Source: Thermaerobacter sp. PB12/4term (lineage in GTDB: Bacteria; Bacillota; Sulfobacillia; Thermaerobacterales; Thermaerobacteraceae). Taken from it: a stretch of DNA of 64,000 nt. Both the position numbers and the translations under genes were made by a program. Below, one piece after another: positions 5,400 through 39,606 of this stretch (position 1 is its first letter; the number at the start of each line of letters is the position of its first letter). The stretch lies in NCBI RefSeq assembly GCF_003403315.2, contig NZ_CP048407.1:1798001-1862000 (forward strand), written 5' to 3'. Under the pieces are notes generated by a model that ran no database searches, was not told the DNA's origin, and saw only the letters and a list, made by a program, of their open reading frames with translations.

Positions 5400-6152
5400 C
5401 TATTCCGGCCGCCAGAAGGTGACCCGCCAGGCCCCGTCCGGATCCCGCTCCGCCCGGTGCTCGAACCCCTTGCGCTTCATCACCCAGTAGAGGGGCACGG
5501 GCTCGAACCCGACGATCAGCACGAAGGGCTGGCCCGGCTTGAGGCGCGCCACGTTGGCCATGATGTCCCGGAAGGGCTCCTGGCGGCGGGCGAAATAGGG
5601 CCGGACGTCCATGACCAGCGGCTCCACGCCCGCGGTGGCCGGCGTGGCCGCGTGCTCCTGTCCCTTTCCGCCTGCTCCGGGCTGTCCGGCAGGGTCAGCC
5701 GGTTCGGCCGAACCCGGCACCGCCTGGGCGGCCGGCTCACCCCTCGCCGGCAGGGCGGCCGAACCCCGGGAACCCGGCGCCGCGCCGGCCCGCCAGATGC
5801 GGATGATCACCGAGCCGTCGTCCTGTTCCGCCATGGCGTATTCGAAGCCGCGCTCGTCCAGGTGAGGCAGGAGGAACATGGGCTTGCGGTCGTTGTGGGC
5901 CTGCAGCACCTGGCCGGGCTCCAGCTGGTCCAGGGCGGACAGGATCCGCACCATGGGTTCGGGCGGCTGCAGCCCGCGGTTGTCCAGCTGAAGCGCCGGT
6001 TCGGCCGGAGAGGGTGGCAACCGCAGGCCCCCGCCCGCGGTCCCGCCCGGCGCAGCCTGCCCGTTCGGCGGAGCCTGCGCGCCGCCCGCCGCCCCTGGGC
6101 GTTCCCCGGCTGGTTCGGCCCGGCCGGCACCCTTGCCCCTGCGGAAGAACAT
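5400..6152 (-). CDS. Protein with two DUF2249 domains
   Basis: 250 residues. After a Gly/Ala-rich start, two TusA-like DUF2249 modules are separated by an Ala/Pro/Gly linker. The first begins LDNRGLQPPEPMVRIL with GQVLQAHNDRKP; the second begins VMDVRPYFARRQEPF with GQPFVLIVGFEPVPLY. The DUF2249 fold is related to sulfur-carrier TusA but lacks its conserved Cys-Pro pair here. The ATG at 6152 follows GAGGAGG by eight bases. A GTGA-N6-TCAC palindrome lies 72 bp upstream. The role is unknown; DUF2249 genes often neighbour denitrification genes, as here. Confidence 0.8.
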   Translation of the reverse strand: MFFRRGKGAGRAEPAGERPGAAGGAQAPPNGQAAPGGTAGGGLRLPPSPAEPALQLDNRGLQPPEPMVRILSALDQLEPGQVLQAHNDRKPMFLLPHLDERGFEYAMAEQDDGSVIIRIWRAGAAPGSRGSAALPARGEPAAQAVPGSAEPADPAGQPGAGGKGQEHAATPATAGVEPLVMDVRPYFARRQEPFRDIMANVARLKPGQPFVLIVGFEPVPLYWVMKRKGFEHRAERDPDGAWRVTFWRPE

Positions 6153-6222
6153 GCTCCCCACCTCCTCGTCTCCTTGGCACGTTTCCTCAGGGCGATGGTG
6201 CCCAATGGCGGGGTGCGCCGGC

Positions 6223-6238
6223 TGTGATGCCCGTCACC
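6223..6238. promoter_or_regulatory. Crp/Fnr-type operator, GTGA-TGCCCG-TCAC
   Basis: A palindrome with both GTGA and TCAC half-sites at six-base spacing, 72 bp upstream of the minus-strand DUF2249 gene. A second copy at 6476-6489 serves the divergent gene at 6547. Confidence 0.6.
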
Positions 6239-6474
6239 GGGCGCCTAAGGAGTTGACGCCGTCCGGTAACCACCGTGCGACCGGTCCCCGCCCGGGATCC
6301 TGCCGCCGGGCGGTCCAGACGCCGGGCGTGGCGGCCGGCCGCTCCCACCACGCCGGGCCACAGCGGTCACGGCGAACGCCGCGCTCGCCGGGCCCCGGGA
6401 CGGGACGGCCCACGGCCCGGGGCCCGTTGCCCCGCCGTGCCCCATCGCCCCGCCGGCCCGCGGCTGCCGCCGGC

Positions 6475-31870: not shown

Positions 31871-32333
31871 CCCGCCACCTGCCTCCTGGTTCCCAGGTCC
31901 CTCAGCGGACGGAGCCCCCACCGGCGGTGGAACCGGCACCGCCCGCTCCTTCACCGCCCCTCTACCGCCGGGCCGGCAGGGGCCGGGCCGTTGCGGAACA
32001 TCCACGACGTTTCCCGCCAGGGTGGCGTCGCCCCCCGTGGCGCAAACCGGGACCCCTCCCGCGAATATCCTTTGCCGAAACGAGCCTGCCGGCGAGCAAC
32101 CGGCACGGGGGCGGTCCCCAGCCGGCGGGCTCTGGGGGATGCCCGTTCCGCCCATCGCACCCTGTTGCCTTAACGACCGTTCGGTGGAACCGGCCCAGGG
32201 CCCGCAGGCTGCTCGCGGGCCGGCCGGGCGACCGGCGGGCGGTGCCGGCGCGGCGCGAGCGCCGCGATGGCCCACCCGGCCCGTCGCCGCCCCGGCGGAC
32301 CCGCCCGCCGCCCTGAAAGCGAGGGGGGTTTCC
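31871..32333. other. Intergenic region, no gene supported
   Basis: About 460 bp between the lipoprotein and the ABC1 kinase gene. The in-frame upstream extension of the kinase gives Pro/Arg/Gly-rich sequence without domain character. No clear repeat or terminator was found. Confidence 0.4.
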
Positions 32334-34130
32334 ATGGCCATGGCCACCCTGCCCCCGCGGCAGGCGGCCACCCCAACCGGCCGGCGGGTTGACCTGTCGG
32401 CCGCCTGGTGGTCGTCGCCCCGGTGGGCGGAAGAGAAGAAGCGCATCAAGGCGGAACTGGCCGCCCTGGAAGCTGGCATCACGCCCCGCAAGCGGCTGCG
32501 GGCCGTGGTCCGCACCCTGGCCCGCCACGGCCTGCTCTACCTGCTCCAAGACCGCAATGCGGTGAAGGAGCTGGCCGGCACCGGCCCGGGTAGCCCCCAG
32601 GACCTGCGCTTGCGCCAGATCGGGCGGCGGGTGCGGCTGGCCTTCCAGGAGTTGGGCCCCACCTTCATCAAGCTGGGGCAGGTGCTCGTAACCCGGCAGG
32701 AACTGCTGCCCGAGCCCATCACCATGGAGCTGGCCCAGCTGCTGGACCAGGTCCCGCCCATGCCCTTCCCCTACATGGCCGTCCTGCTGGACGACGAGTT
32801 GCCCGACGGCCTGCAGACCTTTGCCTGGATCGACCCCGACCCCATCGGCTCGGCCTCGCTGGCCCAGGTCTACCGCGCCCAGCTGCGGGACGGCCGGCCC
32901 TGCGCGGTCAAGGTGGTTCGTCCCCTGGTCGACAAGCTGTTCCAGACGGACATCGCCAACATCGCCAAGCTGGCCCGGCGGCTGCAAAAGCTGCTGCCGC
33001 CGCCCATGGCGGCCTCCTCCGACCTGCCCGGGGTGATCCGCGACTACTACAGCAGCGTGGCCAGCGAACTGGACATGCGCATCGAGGCCCGCAACACCAA
33101 GGAGGGCCGCGCGATCGTCGAGGAATTCGCCACGCTGGCCGTACCCGAGGTCTATCTGGCCACGCGGCGCGTGCTGGTCACCGAATACATCGACGGGTGG
33201 AACATCAAGGACTTCCCCGTCGACTTCTTCACCTTCGAAGAGCGCTTCGAGCGCATGATCGACCTGGCCCACCTCTACATCAAGGAGTTTCTCGACGGGC
33301 GCTACCACGCCGACCCCCACGGGTCGAACCTGATGGTCTGCCGCCACACCAGGAAGGTGTACGTCATCGACTGGGGCATGGTCGGGCGGATGGACGCCCT
33401 GCACACCGAGGCCATCTTCCGCCACCTGCTGCACATCCGGCTCAACCAGGCCGAAGACGCCGCCGAGGTGATGCTGGACGTCTTCGAGCCCACGCCCTAT
33501 ACCGACGCGGGCCGCCTGAAGGACCAGCTCCGGTCCCTCTACATCCAGTACGTCGACACCGAACAGGCCGGATCCCACAACTGGGGCCATCTGCTGATGG
33601 AAGAGATTCGCATCGCCATGGAGAATCATTGCCGCATCCCCGCCGGTCTCTCCCTCTGGGCCAAGGGGTGGTCGGCGGCGGAGGGCACGGCCCGCTGGCT
33701 CTGCCCGGAGATCACCTACCACACGGTGGTCGAATCGGCCGACGTACAGATCCTGCGCCGGCTGCTGGCGCGCCGGTTCAACTACCGGGCCAACGCCGCC
33801 TGGATTGCCGAGGCTTCGGAGCTTGTGGCCACGCTGCCGCGGCGGCTGAACAAGATCCTGGAGCGGGCGGCGTGGAACGACTTCAAGCTGCCGGTGGAAG
33901 GGAGGCTCAGCGAACAGGCGACCCGGAACCTGAACCGGATGGTCAACCGCGCCACCCTGGGCCTGATCTCGGGCAGCTTCTTCCTGGGCTCCGCCCTGCT
34001 GGCGGCCCTGGGCGGCGGCACCCTGGACCGGATTCCGGGGCTGGCGGCGGTGACCACCACCGCGCTGTGGGGATCCCTGGGGGTTGGCGTGTACACCGTC
34101 TGGCGCGTGTTGCGGTCGAACAAGGCCTGA
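32334..34130 (+). CDS. ABC1/UbiB-type atypical protein kinase
   Basis: 598 residues. ABC1 family motifs: LGPTFIKLGQVLVTRQELLP (KxGQ motif), PIGSASLAQVYRAQLRDGRPCAVKVVRP (Ala-rich nucleotide loop and Lys), ASELDMRIEARN, YHADPHGSNLMV (catalytic Asp) and VIDWGMVGRM (metal Asp). Two C-terminal membrane helices (LISGSFFLGSALLAAL, ALWGSLGVGVYTVW) anchor it. Family members support ubiquinone or other isoprenoid-lipid pathways and have ATPase activity. GAGGGGGG precedes the ATG. It is 27 bp from the acyl-CoA ligase fusion gene and probably co-transcribed. Confidence 0.93.
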   Translation: MAMATLPPRQAATPTGRRVDLSAAWWSSPRWAEEKKRIKAELAALEAGITPRKRLRAVVRTLARHGLLYLLQDRNAVKELAGTGPGSPQDLRLRQIGRRVRLAFQELGPTFIKLGQVLVTRQELLPEPITMELAQLLDQVPPMPFPYMAVLLDDELPDGLQTFAWIDPDPIGSASLAQVYRAQLRDGRPCAVKVVRPLVDKLFQTDIANIAKLARRLQKLLPPPMAASSDLPGVIRDYYSSVASELDMRIEARNTKEGRAIVEEFATLAVPEVYLATRRVLVTEYIDGWNIKDFPVDFFTFEERFERMIDLAHLYIKEFLDGRYHADPHGSNLMVCRHTRKVYVIDWGMVGRMDALHTEAIFRHLLHIRLNQAEDAAEVMLDVFEPTPYTDAGRLKDQLRSLYIQYVDTEQAGSHNWGHLLMEEIRIAMENHCRIPAGLSLWAKGWSAAEGTARWLCPEITYHTVVESADVQILRRLLARRFNYRANAAWIAEASELVATLPRRLNKILERAAWNDFKLPVEGRLSEQATRNLNRMVNRATLGLISGSFFLGSALLAALGGGTLDRIPGLAAVTTTALWGSLGVGVYTVWRVLRSNKA

Positions 34131-34157
34131 AAGGCCGAGAGGGAGGGGTGAAGGACC

Positions 34158-36779
34158 ATGTCCATGCAGCATGCAGCCTCCGGCCCGGGCGGGGCCGGGA
34201 TCGCCCTGGCCCGGGATCCGGGGGGTCCCAGCACAGGAGGAGCGGGGAGGGGACCCCAGGGGGTTCCCGCCCGCCCCGGTGGCGGCTTCCGCGCCTGGAA
34301 GGCCCAGCGGCCCTTCTGGGGAGCCACCTTGAGCCTGATCGCCGGGTTCCTCATCCTGTGGATGCCGCTCAACCTGTTTCCCTTCGCGTTCCTGCCCGAC
34401 ACCCTGATCTTCTTGGGATATCTCTTCTCCGGGCTGGTCATCGCCACGGCCATCGCGGGCTTTCTGCTCCCGGCGGCGTCGACGTACCTGGGCATCCTGG
34501 TCATCCTGTTCTCCATCGTATCGATCTTCGGCGCCCTGGGCGGCCTGTTCGTGGGAGCCATCCTGGGGATCCTCGGCGGGTCGCTGATGGTCGCCTGGCA
34601 ACCGGTGATCGTGACCCCCGCGATGATGAACGGGCAGGCCCATGGCGCCGGGGGTGCGACCCCTGGCGAGGACGCGGCGGGCCCGGGTTCCGCCGGTACA
34701 GCCCGGGGCCGCGGCCGCAGCGGCACCGGGCTGTACCAGGTGCCGGCCGGCGCCACCGTCCATGCCACCGAGCTGGTACCTGAAGAAGAGATCCGCCAGC
34801 GGCCCTGGCTCCGGTACTACCCTGCCGGGGTGCGCCCCCACCTGAACTACCCGGAGATCCCCCTGCAGCGGCTGCTGGAGCGGGCGGCGGAGATGCGGCC
34901 CCGGCAGCCGGCCATCCACTTCTTCGGCCGCACCATGACCTACGGCGAGCTGAACCAGCTGGCCGACCGCTTCGCCCGGGGGCTGGCCAACCTGGGCATC
35001 CGGCCCGGCGACCGGGTGGCCCTGATGATGCCCAACTGCCCCCAGTTCGTCATCGCCTACTACGGCGCCCTCAAAGCGGGGGCCGTGGTCGTCAACTGCA
35101 ACCCCCTCTACAGCCCGCGGGAGCTGGAATTCCAGCTCAACGACAGCGGCGCCCGGGTCATCGTCGCCCTGGACCTGATGTATCCCACGGTGCGGCAGGT
35201 GGTCCACGCCACGCCCCTCGAGCGGGTGCTGGTGACGCGGATCAACGAGTTCATGTCGCCCCTCCTGGGCCGGCTCTACCCTCTCAAGGCCAAAAAGGAC
35301 GGCACCTGGGTGGAGATCGGGCGGCATGAGAACGTGCTCTGGTTCGGCCGGCTTCTCCGGGAGGCGCCCCCCGCACCGCCGCCGGTGGAGGTTCAACCCG
35401 ACGACCTGGCCCTCTTGCAGTACACCGGCGGCACCACCGGTACGGCCAAGGGCGCCATGCTGACCCACCGCAACCTGGTGGCCAACGTGCTGCAGACGGC
35501 GGAATGGACCCTGCGGGGCCGCTGGGATGAGGCGCACCAGCAGGTGATCCTGGGCGTCATGCCCTTCTTCCACTCCTACGGCATGACCACGGTGATGAAC
35601 CTGGCCATCGCCCTGCAGTGCGCCATGGTGCCCCTGCCGCGCTTCGAGGCGGAGATGGTGATCAAGGCCATCGCCAAGTACCGGCCCACCATGGTGCCGG
35701 GAGTGCCCACGATGTACGTGGCCTTGATGAACCATCCCAAGTTCCACAGGATCGACGTCTCGTCCATCGAGGCCTGTGTCAGCGGGGCGGCTCCCCTGCC
35801 CCTGGAGGTGCAGGAGCGCTTCGAGGCCAGCACCGGCGGCCAGCTGGTGGAAGGGTACGGCCTGACGGAGGCCTCGCCGGTCACCCACGCCAATCCCCCC
35901 AACGAGTACAAGCGCAACGGGACCATCGGGCTCCCCGTGCCCGACACCGAGGCCCGCATCGTCGACATCGAGACCGGGACCCGGGTGCTGGGGCCGGGCG
36001 AGGTAGGCGAGCTCATCATCCGCGGTCCCCAGGTGATGAAGGGCTACTGGAACCGGCCCGAGGAAACGGCCCGAACCCTGCGGGACGGCTGGCTCTACAC
36101 CGGCGACATCGCCACCATGGACGAAGACGGCTTCTTCCGGATCGTGGACCGGAAGAAGGAGATGATCATCAGCGGCGGCTACAACGTCTACCCCCGCGAG
36201 GTGGAAGAGGTCCTCTACGAGCACCCCAAGGTCCTGGAGGCCGCCGTCATCGGTGCCCCCGACCCCTATCGCGGCGAGATGGTCAAGGCCTTCGTGGTGC
36301 TCAAGCCCGGCCAGACCGCCACGGAGCAGGAGATCATCGAGTTCTGCCGCCAGCGCCTGGCCAAGTACAAGGTGCCGCGGGCCGTGGAGTTCCGCAGCGA
36401 ACTGCCCAAGACGCTGATCGGCAAGGTGCTGCGCCGGGCCCTGCTGGAAGAGGAGCGCCGGAAGCAACCCGAGGGCAGCCCCGCGGCGCCCTCCCAGGGC
36501 ACCGGTTCTGCGGGAACCGCCGCCACCGAAAGCGCCGTCGAGGAAGCGGGCCCCGGGCGTACCGGCGCAGGCAGCGACGATGCCGGTGCCGCTGGCACGG
36601 CTGGCGGGGGAACCGGCGCCCCGGCCGGCGCGGCGGCTGCGGGCGAACCGGCCGGCGGGCCGGGCCACCTCCCGCCCGAACCGCCCGCCCGCCTGGTCAC
36701 GCCGCAGGAGCTGCTGGAGCCGGGACCCCAGGGCGAGGCCGCCGAGGGCGAAGGCGACTGGCGCAAGTGGTTCCGGTAA
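34158..36779 (+). CDS. DUF6114 membrane domain fused to long-chain acyl-CoA ligase
   Basis: 873 residues in one frame. Residues 45-155 are a four-helix DUF6114-like membrane domain (FRAWKAQRPFWGATLSLIAG, then several hydrophobic stretches). After a linker, residues 235-770 are a complete FadD-type adenylating enzyme: YTGGTTGTAKGAML (P-loop), VEGYGLTEASPV, GWLYTGDIATMDEDGFFRIVDRKKEMI, and the C-terminal lysine in PKTLIGKVLRR. A Gly/Ala-rich tail follows. It activates fatty acids to acyl-CoA; the fused membrane domain would hold the enzyme at the membrane. The fusion is unusual. GGGAGGGG precedes the ATG. Confidence 0.9.
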   Translation: MSMQHAASGPGGAGIALARDPGGPSTGGAGRGPQGVPARPGGGFRAWKAQRPFWGATLSLIAGFLILWMPLNLFPFAFLPDTLIFLGYLFSGLVIATAIAGFLLPAASTYLGILVILFSIVSIFGALGGLFVGAILGILGGSLMVAWQPVIVTPAMMNGQAHGAGGATPGEDAAGPGSAGTARGRGRSGTGLYQVPAGATVHATELVPEEEIRQRPWLRYYPAGVRPHLNYPEIPLQRLLERAAEMRPRQPAIHFFGRTMTYGELNQLADRFARGLANLGIRPGDRVALMMPNCPQFVIAYYGALKAGAVVVNCNPLYSPRELEFQLNDSGARVIVALDLMYPTVRQVVHATPLERVLVTRINEFMSPLLGRLYPLKAKKDGTWVEIGRHENVLWFGRLLREAPPAPPPVEVQPDDLALLQYTGGTTGTAKGAMLTHRNLVANVLQTAEWTLRGRWDEAHQQVILGVMPFFHSYGMTTVMNLAIALQCAMVPLPRFEAEMVIKAIAKYRPTMVPGVPTMYVALMNHPKFHRIDVSSIEACVSGAAPLPLEVQERFEASTGGQLVEGYGLTEASPVTHANPPNEYKRNGTIGLPVPDTEARIVDIETGTRVLGPGEVGELIIRGPQVMKGYWNRPEETARTLRDGWLYTGDIATMDEDGFFRIVDRKKEMIISGGYNVYPREVEEVLYEHPKVLEAAVIGAPDPYRGEMVKAFVVLKPGQTATEQEIIEFCRQRLAKYKVPRAVEFRSELPKTLIGKVLRRALLEEERRKQPEGSPAAPSQGTGSAGTAATESAVEEAGPGRTGAGSDDAGAAGTAGGGTGAPAGAAAAGEPAGGPGHLPPEPPARLVTPQELLEPGPQGEAAEGEGDWRKWFR

Positions 36780-36811: not shown

Positions 36812-37177
36812 ATGCCGGCCAGCAACGGGCGCCGCATGACGATGGAAGAGCGGATCCAGGCCTTCTTCCGGCAGAGCGGCGGCCCCAACAACCCGCAGAT
36901 CCCCAAGCTGGTCGAAAAGCACCTGCTCTACGGCAAGGACCACGGCATCCCCGGTTACCGGGAGACCTTCGCCGACGCCTTCATCGACGCCGTGGTGGGC
37001 GACCCCTCGCTGCTTTTGATCTACGAGCGGCTGCAGCGCTGGCGGGCCCAGCGCCAGCGGGAGCGCCAGCAGGCCGGTGGGGCCGGAGGAAGCACCGATC
37101 CGGAACTGTTGCGGCGTTTGGAGCGGCTGGAGCGGGAGGTGGCCCGGCTGCGGGAGGCCGTCGAGCGGCTCGGGTAG
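36812..37177 (+). CDS. Small protein with C-terminal coiled coil
   Basis: 121 residues. Residues 10-75 look globular and helical (MEERIQAFFRQSGGP, DHGIPGYRETFADAFIDAVVGDP). The last 30 (ELLRRLERLEREVARLREAVERL) form a regular heptad coiled coil, so it probably oligomerises. GGGAGGTGA precedes the ATG and the gene lies 32 bp after the acyl-CoA ligase, so it is likely the last gene of that operon. No family was recognised. Confidence 0.65.
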   Translation: MPASNGRRMTMEERIQAFFRQSGGPNNPQIPKLVEKHLLYGKDHGIPGYRETFADAFIDAVVGDPSLLLIYERLQRWRAQRQRERQQAGGAGGSTDPELLRRLERLEREVARLREAVERLG

Positions 37178-37221
37178 AGCGTCTAGGTGGAACGGAATCA
37201 AGGCGAGGCGCCATGTGCAGC

Positions 37222-37252
37222 CGGGCCCGGGGATCCCAGGCCCCCGGGCCCG
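37222..37252 (+). terminator. Hairpin after the coiled-coil gene
   Basis: CGGGCCCGGGG and CCCCGGGCCCG form a perfect 11-bp stem with a nine-base loop, about 45 bp after the stop. No T-run. Confidence 0.5.
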
Positions 37253-37428
37253 CCCCTACGTGGCCCGCCGGGGGGACGCACCTCCGGCGGCTCGCGACGA
37301 CGTCAGAGCCTCGTCGAGCCGGAAGATCGGGAATGGGGAGCGAAGATGGGGATCGCCCGGTGTGGGGGAGCCGGGCCGGTTCGGGTGGGTGGACCAGCAC
37401 ACCACGCGTCACGGGGAGGGATCGCCCC

Positions 37429-39606
37429 ATGCGATCCGGCACGGGGCGGGAGCGGGCGAAAGCACCTGCCCGCCGGGACGGCGGCCGGGTGTTCCGGCCT
37501 GGTGACCTGTTCCTCCGTCGGGTGAAGGGGTTTAGGCTGGTCCGGTGCATCCTTCCGGGGTTTGACAGCCGGCCCCTGGGTCTGAGCCGGCGGGCAGCCG
37601 GCGCCTTCACCGCCCTGTTCTCGCTTCTGGCGTCCACCCTCACCCCGGTGGCTGAGGCCCTGGCCCCGGCCGCCGCGGCCGCGGCGCCGGCGGCGGCCGC
37701 CCTGGGCCTGGCCGCGGCGGCCACCCTGGTTTCTCCCGCCCGCCCGGCGGAAGCGGCTCCCACGGGCTACGTGCGGATGAGCGACGGCGTGCTCATCGCC
37801 GTCAACGTCCGCATGCCCGACGATTACGTGCCCGGGCGCAAGTACCCGGCCATCTTCCTGATGGACGGCTACGACGGCGGTTCCTCCAGCGGCACCACCA
37901 TTGCCGGCGTGGCCGACAGCCGCACCCAGCTGACCTGGATGTTCAACCCGCACTACGTCACGGTGCACGCCTCCATCCGCGGCACCGGCTGCTCCGGGGG
38001 CGAGTTCGACCTGTTCAGCTGGCGCACGGCCGTGGACGGCCGGGAGGTGATCGAGTGGATCGCCCGCCAGCCGTGGTCGAACGGCAAGGTGGGCATCATG
38101 GGCCACTCCTACAGTGGCCTGACCGGTTTCATGGTGGCCGCCACCCAGCCGCCCCACCTGGTGGCGGTGACCGTGTCCGGGCTGATCGACGACCTGTACC
38201 GGGGCATCGTGTACCCCGGCGGCGTCTCCAACTACGGCTTCCCCCTGCTCTGGACGGGCATCATCCGGCCCGCCTACGAGCTGGGCGGCGGCGTGGCACC
38301 GGGCATCCTGGCAGCGGACCATGTGTGCGCCCAGAACGTGGCCTCCCACCGCCGCAACCTCGCCGGCGACCCGATCCTCCAGGGGCTGGCCTCGGACACG
38401 GACAACGACTGGTACCGCTCCCGCTCGCTGATCACCTACGCCGATCGGATCCGCGTGCCCATCCACATCACCGGGGCCTACCAGGACGAGCAGACGGGCC
38501 CCCGCGGGCCGGCCCACCTGTGGGAAGCGGTGCAGGGCGTGCCCAAGCGCCTGGTCCTGACCAACGGCGTGCACGGCACCCAGATGGACCCGCCCGAGAT
38601 CTGGAAGGACCGGCTGGCGTGGATGGACCACTGGTTGCGCGGGGTCGACGGCGGGTTCGGCACCCTGAGCCAGAAGCGGACCTCGGTGGTCACCCTGCTG
38701 GAGCTGCACCGCCAGGGCGGCGTGCTGGTGTCCAACGGCCGGAAGGTCTCCCGCACCTTCCCTCTGGAGGATACCCGCTGGACCAGCTGGTACCTGCACG
38801 GGGACGGAAGCCTTTCCACCACCCCGCCCGCCGCGGCGGAAGAACCGGCCCGCTACCTCTCCGGCCCCGGCCGCCACTCCTGGAGCTACCAGCTAGGGCC
38901 GTCGGCGGGCCCGCCCCTGACCACCGCCCACCTGCCCGATGAGGTGGAGTACCACAGCGAGCCCTTTGACCGGCCGGTGCTCATCGCCGGACCCATCACC
39001 GCCACCCTCTACCTGTCGACCACGGCCCCCGACACGGAGCTCTTCGTCCAGCTGATCGACGAAGGGCCCGACGGCAGCCGCAGCTACCTGCAGCGGGGCC
39101 TCTTGCGGGCGGCCCACCGGGCGGTGGACTACAGCCAGAGCGACTACGCCGACAACGTGCTCTACCGGCCCCACCATCCCCACACCAACGCCGAGCTGGT
39201 GACGCCGGGACAGGTGGAGGAGTACCTGATCGAGATCTTCCCCGTGGGCCACGTCTTCCGGCCCGGCCACCGGCTGGTGGTCAAGGTCCATGCCCCGCCG
39301 CTGCTGGACAGCTATTACCTCTACGTCCCGCGGCGGGTGCCGTCCATCAACACCATCTACCACGACCCCCAGCACCCCTCGCGCCTGATGTTGCCGGTGG
39401 TGCCCCTGACGGGCGTGAAGCTGGGACCCGAACTGCCCTGCGGCGCCCAGGTGGGGGTGCGGTGCATCCCGGCAGGCAGCCGGGAGTTCCTGCCCGGCGG
39501 CGGTGATCCGGGCTCGAGCGGCGGCACCCAGCCGGCCCCCTCGGCCCGCCTCACCGGCCAGGGGCACGTGGAGATCCGCATCAGCTCCGGCACGCCGCTG
39601 CGATAG
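37429..39606 (+). CDS. Secreted CocE/NonD (S15) family hydrolase
   Basis: 725 residues. The ATG follows GGGGAGGGA; an internal GTG at 37522 is closer to the signal peptide but has no site. A hydrophobic, Ala-rich signal region ends near PARPAEA. The alpha/beta-hydrolase core has GHSYSG (nucleophile Ser near residue 227), AYQDEQTGP (Asp) and NGVHGTQ (His). A beta-rich C-terminal domain (from EVEYHSEPFDRPVLIAGPITATLYLSTTAPDTELFVQL) is typical of CocE/X-Pro dipeptidyl-peptidase relatives. It cleaves an ester or amide outside the cell; substrate unknown. A strong terminator follows. Confidence 0.9.
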   Translation: MRSGTGRERAKAPARRDGGRVFRPGDLFLRRVKGFRLVRCILPGFDSRPLGLSRRAAGAFTALFSLLASTLTPVAEALAPAAAAAAPAAAALGLAAAATLVSPARPAEAAPTGYVRMSDGVLIAVNVRMPDDYVPGRKYPAIFLMDGYDGGSSSGTTIAGVADSRTQLTWMFNPHYVTVHASIRGTGCSGGEFDLFSWRTAVDGREVIEWIARQPWSNGKVGIMGHSYSGLTGFMVAATQPPHLVAVTVSGLIDDLYRGIVYPGGVSNYGFPLLWTGIIRPAYELGGGVAPGILAADHVCAQNVASHRRNLAGDPILQGLASDTDNDWYRSRSLITYADRIRVPIHITGAYQDEQTGPRGPAHLWEAVQGVPKRLVLTNGVHGTQMDPPEIWKDRLAWMDHWLRGVDGGFGTLSQKRTSVVTLLELHRQGGVLVSNGRKVSRTFPLEDTRWTSWYLHGDGSLSTTPPAAAEEPARYLSGPGRHSWSYQLGPSAGPPLTTAHLPDEVEYHSEPFDRPVLIAGPITATLYLSTTAPDTELFVQLIDEGPDGSRSYLQRGLLRAAHRAVDYSQSDYADNVLYRPHHPHTNAELVTPGQVEEYLIEIFPVGHVFRPGHRLVVKVHAPPLLDSYYLYVPRRVPSINTIYHDPQHPSRLMLPVVPLTGVKLGPELPCGAQVGVRCIPAGSREFLPGGGDPGSSGGTQPAPSARLTGQGHVEIRISSGTPLR

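Follow-up and report, generated by a model that had tools for sequence, protein, structure and literature searches.

In eukaryotes, ACSL and FATP proteins carry an acyl-CoA ligase behind an N-terminal membrane segment, and they have been proposed to couple uptake with activation (vectorial acylation). Bacterial long-chain fatty-acyl-CoA synthetases of the ANL superfamily, e.g. FadD and FadD13, combine a complete AMP-binding domain with a C-terminal domain and are soluble or peripheral enzymes (for FadD13, a peripheral membrane protein, see PMC8253482). The membrane domain DUF6114 (PF19609) is found in Actinomycetota, Bacillota and haloarchaea as the gene next downstream of DUF6230 (PF19741); in the literature searched, DUF6114 was unnamed and DUF6230 was named by one paper, in a table only.

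We analysed a 64,000-nucleotide stretch of the genome of Thermaerobacter sp. PB12/4term (hereafter the window), in which DUF6114, a linker and a complete acyl-CoA ligase lie in one protein, encoded by a single open frame of 873 aa at 34158-36779 on the + strand. The ligase resembles FadD and FadD13 in its complete domains and full set of motifs, but these enzymes are soluble or peripheral, whereas the fusion has a predicted integral four-helix domain at its N-terminus. With ACSL and FATP the likeness is one of working only; the membrane segments of those proteins are not DUF6114. The membrane domain is the same as in the DUF6230-DUF6114 pair and the source genome also encodes one DUF6230, but in genomes with the fusion DUF6114 is joined to the ligase and lies far from DUF6230. 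DUF6114 is also joined to other parts in an actinobacterial DUF6114-RDD protein (L160:9556-11472) and in haloarchaeal proteins of 660-670 aa (L162:8189-10195, L165:8152-10143), where the partners are membrane or unknown regions, whereas the Thermaerobacter partner is an enzyme. We read the protein as a long-chain acyl-CoA synthetase anchored in the membrane, with the anchor probably acting as a DUF6230 partner too, and give this whole reading a probability of roughly 0.55.

The fused gene and its product

The fusion and its immediate neighbours comprise the following features.

32334-34130 (+), ABC1/UbiB-like atypical kinase, 598 aa, 27 nt upstream of the fusion
34158-36779 (+), fusion gene DUF6114 - linker - acyl-CoA ligase, 873 aa (open frame, Pfam, fusions in congeners, dN/dS)
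34158-34286 (+), N-terminal extension, residues 1-43, Gly/Pro-rich, without family (Pfam, regional comparison)
34287-34601 (+), DUF6114 domain (PF19609), residues 44-148, with predicted membrane helices at about residues 53-73, 81-103, 105-125 and 131-146 (Pfam, structure model)
34602-34796 (+), linker, residues 149-213, drifting, 62-92% identity across species (regional comparison)
34875-36050 (+), AMP-binding domain (PF00501), residues 240-631, with YTGGTTGTAKG (422) and YGLTE (567) (Pfam, motifs)
36198-36425 (+), AMP-binding_C lid (PF13193), residues 681-756, with IGKVLRR (754) (Pfam, motifs)
36468-36776 (+), C-terminal tail, residues 771-873, low-complexity, relaxed (regional comparison)
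36812-37177 (+), 121-aa conserved protein, 32 nt downstream of the fusion

The frame opens with an ATG preceded by a purine-rich stretch. Its DUF6114 domain, the only copy in the source genome, scores 79.7 bits against a Pfam cut-off of 27.9 and matches model positions 1-106 of 106, while the AMP-binding and AMP-binding_C domains match their full profiles at 365 and 90.3 bits, respectively. With PF00501 and PF13193 both complete, the fused ligase qualifies as an ANL acyl-CoA synthetase, and all expected motifs were found (ATP-binding loop at 422, YGLTE at 567, YTGD at 647, and the C-terminal lysine motif at 754-760). It passes the NCBIfam subfamily model for long-chain-fatty-acid--CoA ligases, PRK06187 (493.1 bits, cut-off 476), and falls short of equivalog models such as PRK06710 (682 versus 1116); its nearest relatives in the PDB are acyl-CoA ligases and coumarate/feruloyl-CoA ligases. 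A long-chain substrate is thus suggested by family naming only. The linker contains ATG and GTG codons, among which we saw no good internal start, and an additional ligase-only product could conceivably arise there.

Intact, stop-free fusions are present in two of the three congeners searched (G001 at 95% and G003 at 91% identity). The most constrained region is DUF6114, which is 99-100% identical, compared with as little as 62% for the linker. Regional dN/dS values, which come from three close species and so have few changes behind each of them, were 0-0.03 in DUF6114, 0.08-0.13 in the ligase and relaxed in the linker and C-terminal tail. Both domains are under purifying selection and the joint between them drifts, a pattern expected of a working two-domain protein; together with the same stop-free fusion in G001 and G003, this selection excludes a frame artefact. 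The in-frame fusion named in the original prediction is therefore confirmed, by the 873-aa frame, the full Pfam profiles and its conservation in two further species.

An AlphaFold model of DUF6114 built from 49 sequences has four helices (mean pLDDT 86.4). Family means for charge are 4.0 K+R versus 0.7 D+E in the N-terminal flank and 0.4 K+R and 0.5 D+E in the first outer loop, and the C-terminal flank is net acidic. A cytoplasmic N-terminus is favoured by the charge distribution; at the C-terminal side the charge argument is weak, and the placing of that end relies on the N-terminus and the even number of helices. With four helices, such an orientation would place the C-terminus, and hence the ligase, in the cytoplasm, where ATP and CoA are, and the fused enzyme would most likely be attached to the membrane on its inner side. 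The idea that DUF6114 tethers the enzyme to the membrane thus stands, on the strength of the model, the charge distribution and the selection on both domains. A fold search with DUF6114 returned generic four-helix bundles only (p22phox, claudin/TARP, copper-storage proteins), which carry no functional weight.

The kinase and the 121-aa gene flank the fusion on the same strand, as originally described, and with short gaps and a conserved order it is plausible that all three are co-transcribed; promoter and terminator scans did no better than on shuffled sequence. The kinase matches the general ABC1 domain and does not reach the UbiB equivalog TIGR01982 (232 versus 488 bits). The label "coiled-coil" given earlier to the 121-aa protein is unproven: it has no Pfam match and a weak GpsB-like match (E 0.0046). 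A search for defence families gave no meaningful match. The cluster contains neither beta-oxidation nor lipid-synthesis genes.

History of the cluster in Thermaerobacteraceae

Five Thermaerobacteraceae genomes retain the ABC1 kinase, and four species retain the order kinase, intervening sequence, 121-aa gene. T. marianensis has kept both flanking genes, but only 460 nt apart compared with about 2.7 kb in the fusion genomes, and the gap holds a ligase remnant of 54 nt at 87% identity, corresponding to residues 281-298. No trace of DUF6114 is left between them, so that the lost ligase may or may not have been part of a fusion. On the upstream side of the T. marianensis kinase lie a DUF6230 gene, a stand-alone DUF6114 gene (328 aa) and a gene for a DUF6230-like protein whose N-terminal part includes a hydrophobic segment. 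A frameshift-free split into two genes in close relatives, with no linkage elsewhere, had been named as what would refute the original prediction, and half of it was found: in T. marianensis, a close relative, the same cluster has a stand-alone DUF6114 gene, and of the ligase just a remnant.

In G004, a draft genome of the other genus in the family, DUF6230 and DUF6114 are separate adjoining genes, and a DUF6230-like gene lies next to the kinase on a different contig. This DUF6230-like protein of 362 aa, which adjoins the kinase in both T. marianensis (L040:8956-10044, + strand) and G004 (L033:2375-3367, - strand), has a Pro-rich stretch besides its hydrophobic segment and falls under the Pfam cut-off.

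The source genome also encodes a soluble FadD paralogue 73% identical to the fused ligase. The fused ligase is sister (fork 94/99) to a family-wide FadD clade without the membrane domain, which contains G004 (support 96/97); the duplication therefore predates the split of the two genera. A recent duplication within the genus was rejected, as the fused ligases form a clade apart from FadD1, whose own clade takes in the other genus. The fused DUF6114 is only about one-third identical to stand-alone copies, with which it groups in a DUF6114 tree (97/88) whose branches are long and whose bootstrap is unsettled.

DUF6114 and its companion DUF6230 in other genomes

DUF6114 was above cut-off in 23/396 Actinomycetota, 27/242 Halobacteria and 6/299 Bacillota genomes, and a scan with a four-sequence DUF6114 alignment found seven loci. 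We surveyed 52 neighbourhoods from actinobacteria, haloarchaea and Bacillota (8-10 kb per side), in which loci inside one clade are not independent. An acyl-CoA ligase was near DUF6114 at 6 of the 52 loci, compared with 4 of 37 control stretches taken from these genomes, so that ligases are no commoner there than in controls and a general DUF6114-fadD linkage was rejected. Neither did the DUF6114 matches of about 1,000 genomes contain a second ligase fusion; long haloarchaeal and actinobacterial frames considered as such turned out to be fusions of another kind or frames open by chance. In some haloarchaea, five to eight copies of DUF6114 lie clustered together.

Beta-oxidation genes lie beside the pair at 7/7 loci in Rubrobacter (a single clade), at 5/23 in one haloarchaeal lineage and at 1/20 other actinobacterial loci, and since loci within a clade are non-independent this is at most a lead. 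Outside that Rubrobacter clade and that haloarchaeal lineage, beta-oxidation neighbours are thus nearly absent. In Rubrobacter, genes for FadB-like protein, thiolase and acyl-CoA dehydrogenase lie 2.5 kb from DUF6230-DUF6114 (L070:10020-15420, - strand, and L154-L159); six of the seven loci have all or most of the set, and in the seventh FadB is farther away.

The constant partner is DUF6230, whose gene is directly upstream of DUF6114 on the same strand at 50/52 loci. In a tool-drawn sample of 638 genomes, which is no census, every genome with DUF6230 also had DUF6114 (21/21 Actinomycetota, 15/15 Halobacteria). The original prediction had taken the fusion as a functional clue to DUF6114 in general; with ligases at control level, no other ligase fusion and so constant a companion, this is not supported: the fusion is weak as a general key, and the DUF6230 pairing is the better one. 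In the DUF6230 model (pLDDT 82.5) the N-terminus is a helix, predicted to lie in the membrane, and the body is all-beta and probably extracytoplasmic; the protein is probably exported. Comparison with the PDB (Foldseek and VIA-align) gave no significant fold match (best E 0.22, best Z 3.3). PKD repeats are typical of exported proteins, and in one haloarchaeon DUF6230 is joined to them (L161:10379-14438).

Each fusion genome has exactly one DUF6230, unlinked to the fusion, and the fused domain as its sole DUF6114. In the source genome the lone DUF6230 lies at L065:9195-9857 on the - strand (G000:C1:600206-600592) with no DUF6114 alongside, and the ABC1 kinase, not DUF6230, is directly upstream of the fusion. 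This DUF6230 has orthologues in G001 and G003 and is 85-97% identical among the three fusion genomes, whereas identity to other copies is at most about 31% (under 31% to T. marianensis DUF6230). The simplest inference from one unlinked DUF6230 and a single, fused DUF6114 is that the fused domain serves DUF6230; judged by presence and absence in one small clade, the fused DUF6114 probably also acts as a DUF6230 partner.

Possible roles of the fusion protein

From its domains and the structure model, the fusion protein is most likely a membrane-tethered acyl-CoA synthetase. DUF6114 would cross the membrane with four helices and have its two ends in the cytoplasm, the ligase on the inner face would activate fatty acids as these reach or leave the bilayer, and the fused domain would link DUF6230, a probable envelope component, to the formation of acyl-CoA. 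Co-transcription with the ABC1 kinase is likely. The tie to DUF6230 is where a competing account departs, which we hold tentatively, as a lesser possibility: DUF6114 was captured merely as the four-helix tether of a duplicated FadD, giving a membrane-bound synthetase for ordinary fatty-acid uptake or recycling. Such an account agrees with the unlinked DUF6230 of the fusion genomes, with the lack of ligase enrichment near DUF6114 elsewhere, and with the frequent need of acyl-CoA synthetases for the membrane (cf. FadD13), but DUF6114 is constrained far above what a mere anchor would lead one to expect, and the conserved DUF6230 is still kept and never occurs without DUF6114 in the genomes sampled.

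It is unlikely that the ligase, instead of serving fatty-acid breakdown, acts with the ABC1/UbiB-like kinase and makes an acyl-CoA or acyl-adenylate for a modified quinone or a lipid of the envelope. No gene of the cluster is as stable as the kinase, its score below the UbiB cut-off leaves room for more than one function, a kinase of this type also adjoins DUF6230-DUF6114 in Streptantibioticus cattleyicolor (L053), and UbiB proteins are reported to influence lipid (coenzyme Q) distribution in yeast (PMC8346625); yet an ABC1 kinase is nearby at only 1 of the 52 surveyed loci outside Thermaerobacteraceae, and the gene content of the cluster points neither way on lipid breakdown or synthesis. A chance read-through or decaying gene, whose two parts are not made or used as one protein, would fit a fusion confined to one genus and decayed in T. 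marianensis, but is very improbable given three species without stop or frameshift, in which the linker drifts between constrained domains.

The fusion provides an enzyme handle on a membrane domain that has gone unstudied, and the obligate-looking DUF6230 partner across bacteria and archaea is the more useful finding. A lipid role of the DUF6230-DUF6114 pair is a guess, which the fusion opens to testing; the acid activated by the tethered ligase would be a simple route to the role of the pair. We regard it as doubtful that DUF6230 and DUF6114 together make up an envelope device that handles fatty acids or other lipids, and which Thermaerobacter has wired directly to acyl-CoA synthesis; such a device would be common to actinobacteria, Bacillota and haloarchaea, and the fusion would be a membrane-coupled (vectorial) acylation system within one protein.

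Some minor features of the loci may be added. The S. cattleyicolor kinase (L053:9043-10785, - strand) is encoded on plasmid pSCAT, in an arrangement that echoes the Thermaerobacter cluster. An antisense frame of 1568 aa at 31962-36668 (-) spans kinase and fusion and is no gene; it is an expected high-G+C by-product of coding on the opposite strand. Adjoining the fusion cluster is a CocE/NonD-type hydrolase gene at 37213-39606 (+), of which just a 175-aa part is called in G001 (L043, near 5765-6292, - strand), where the gene may be broken or mis-called.
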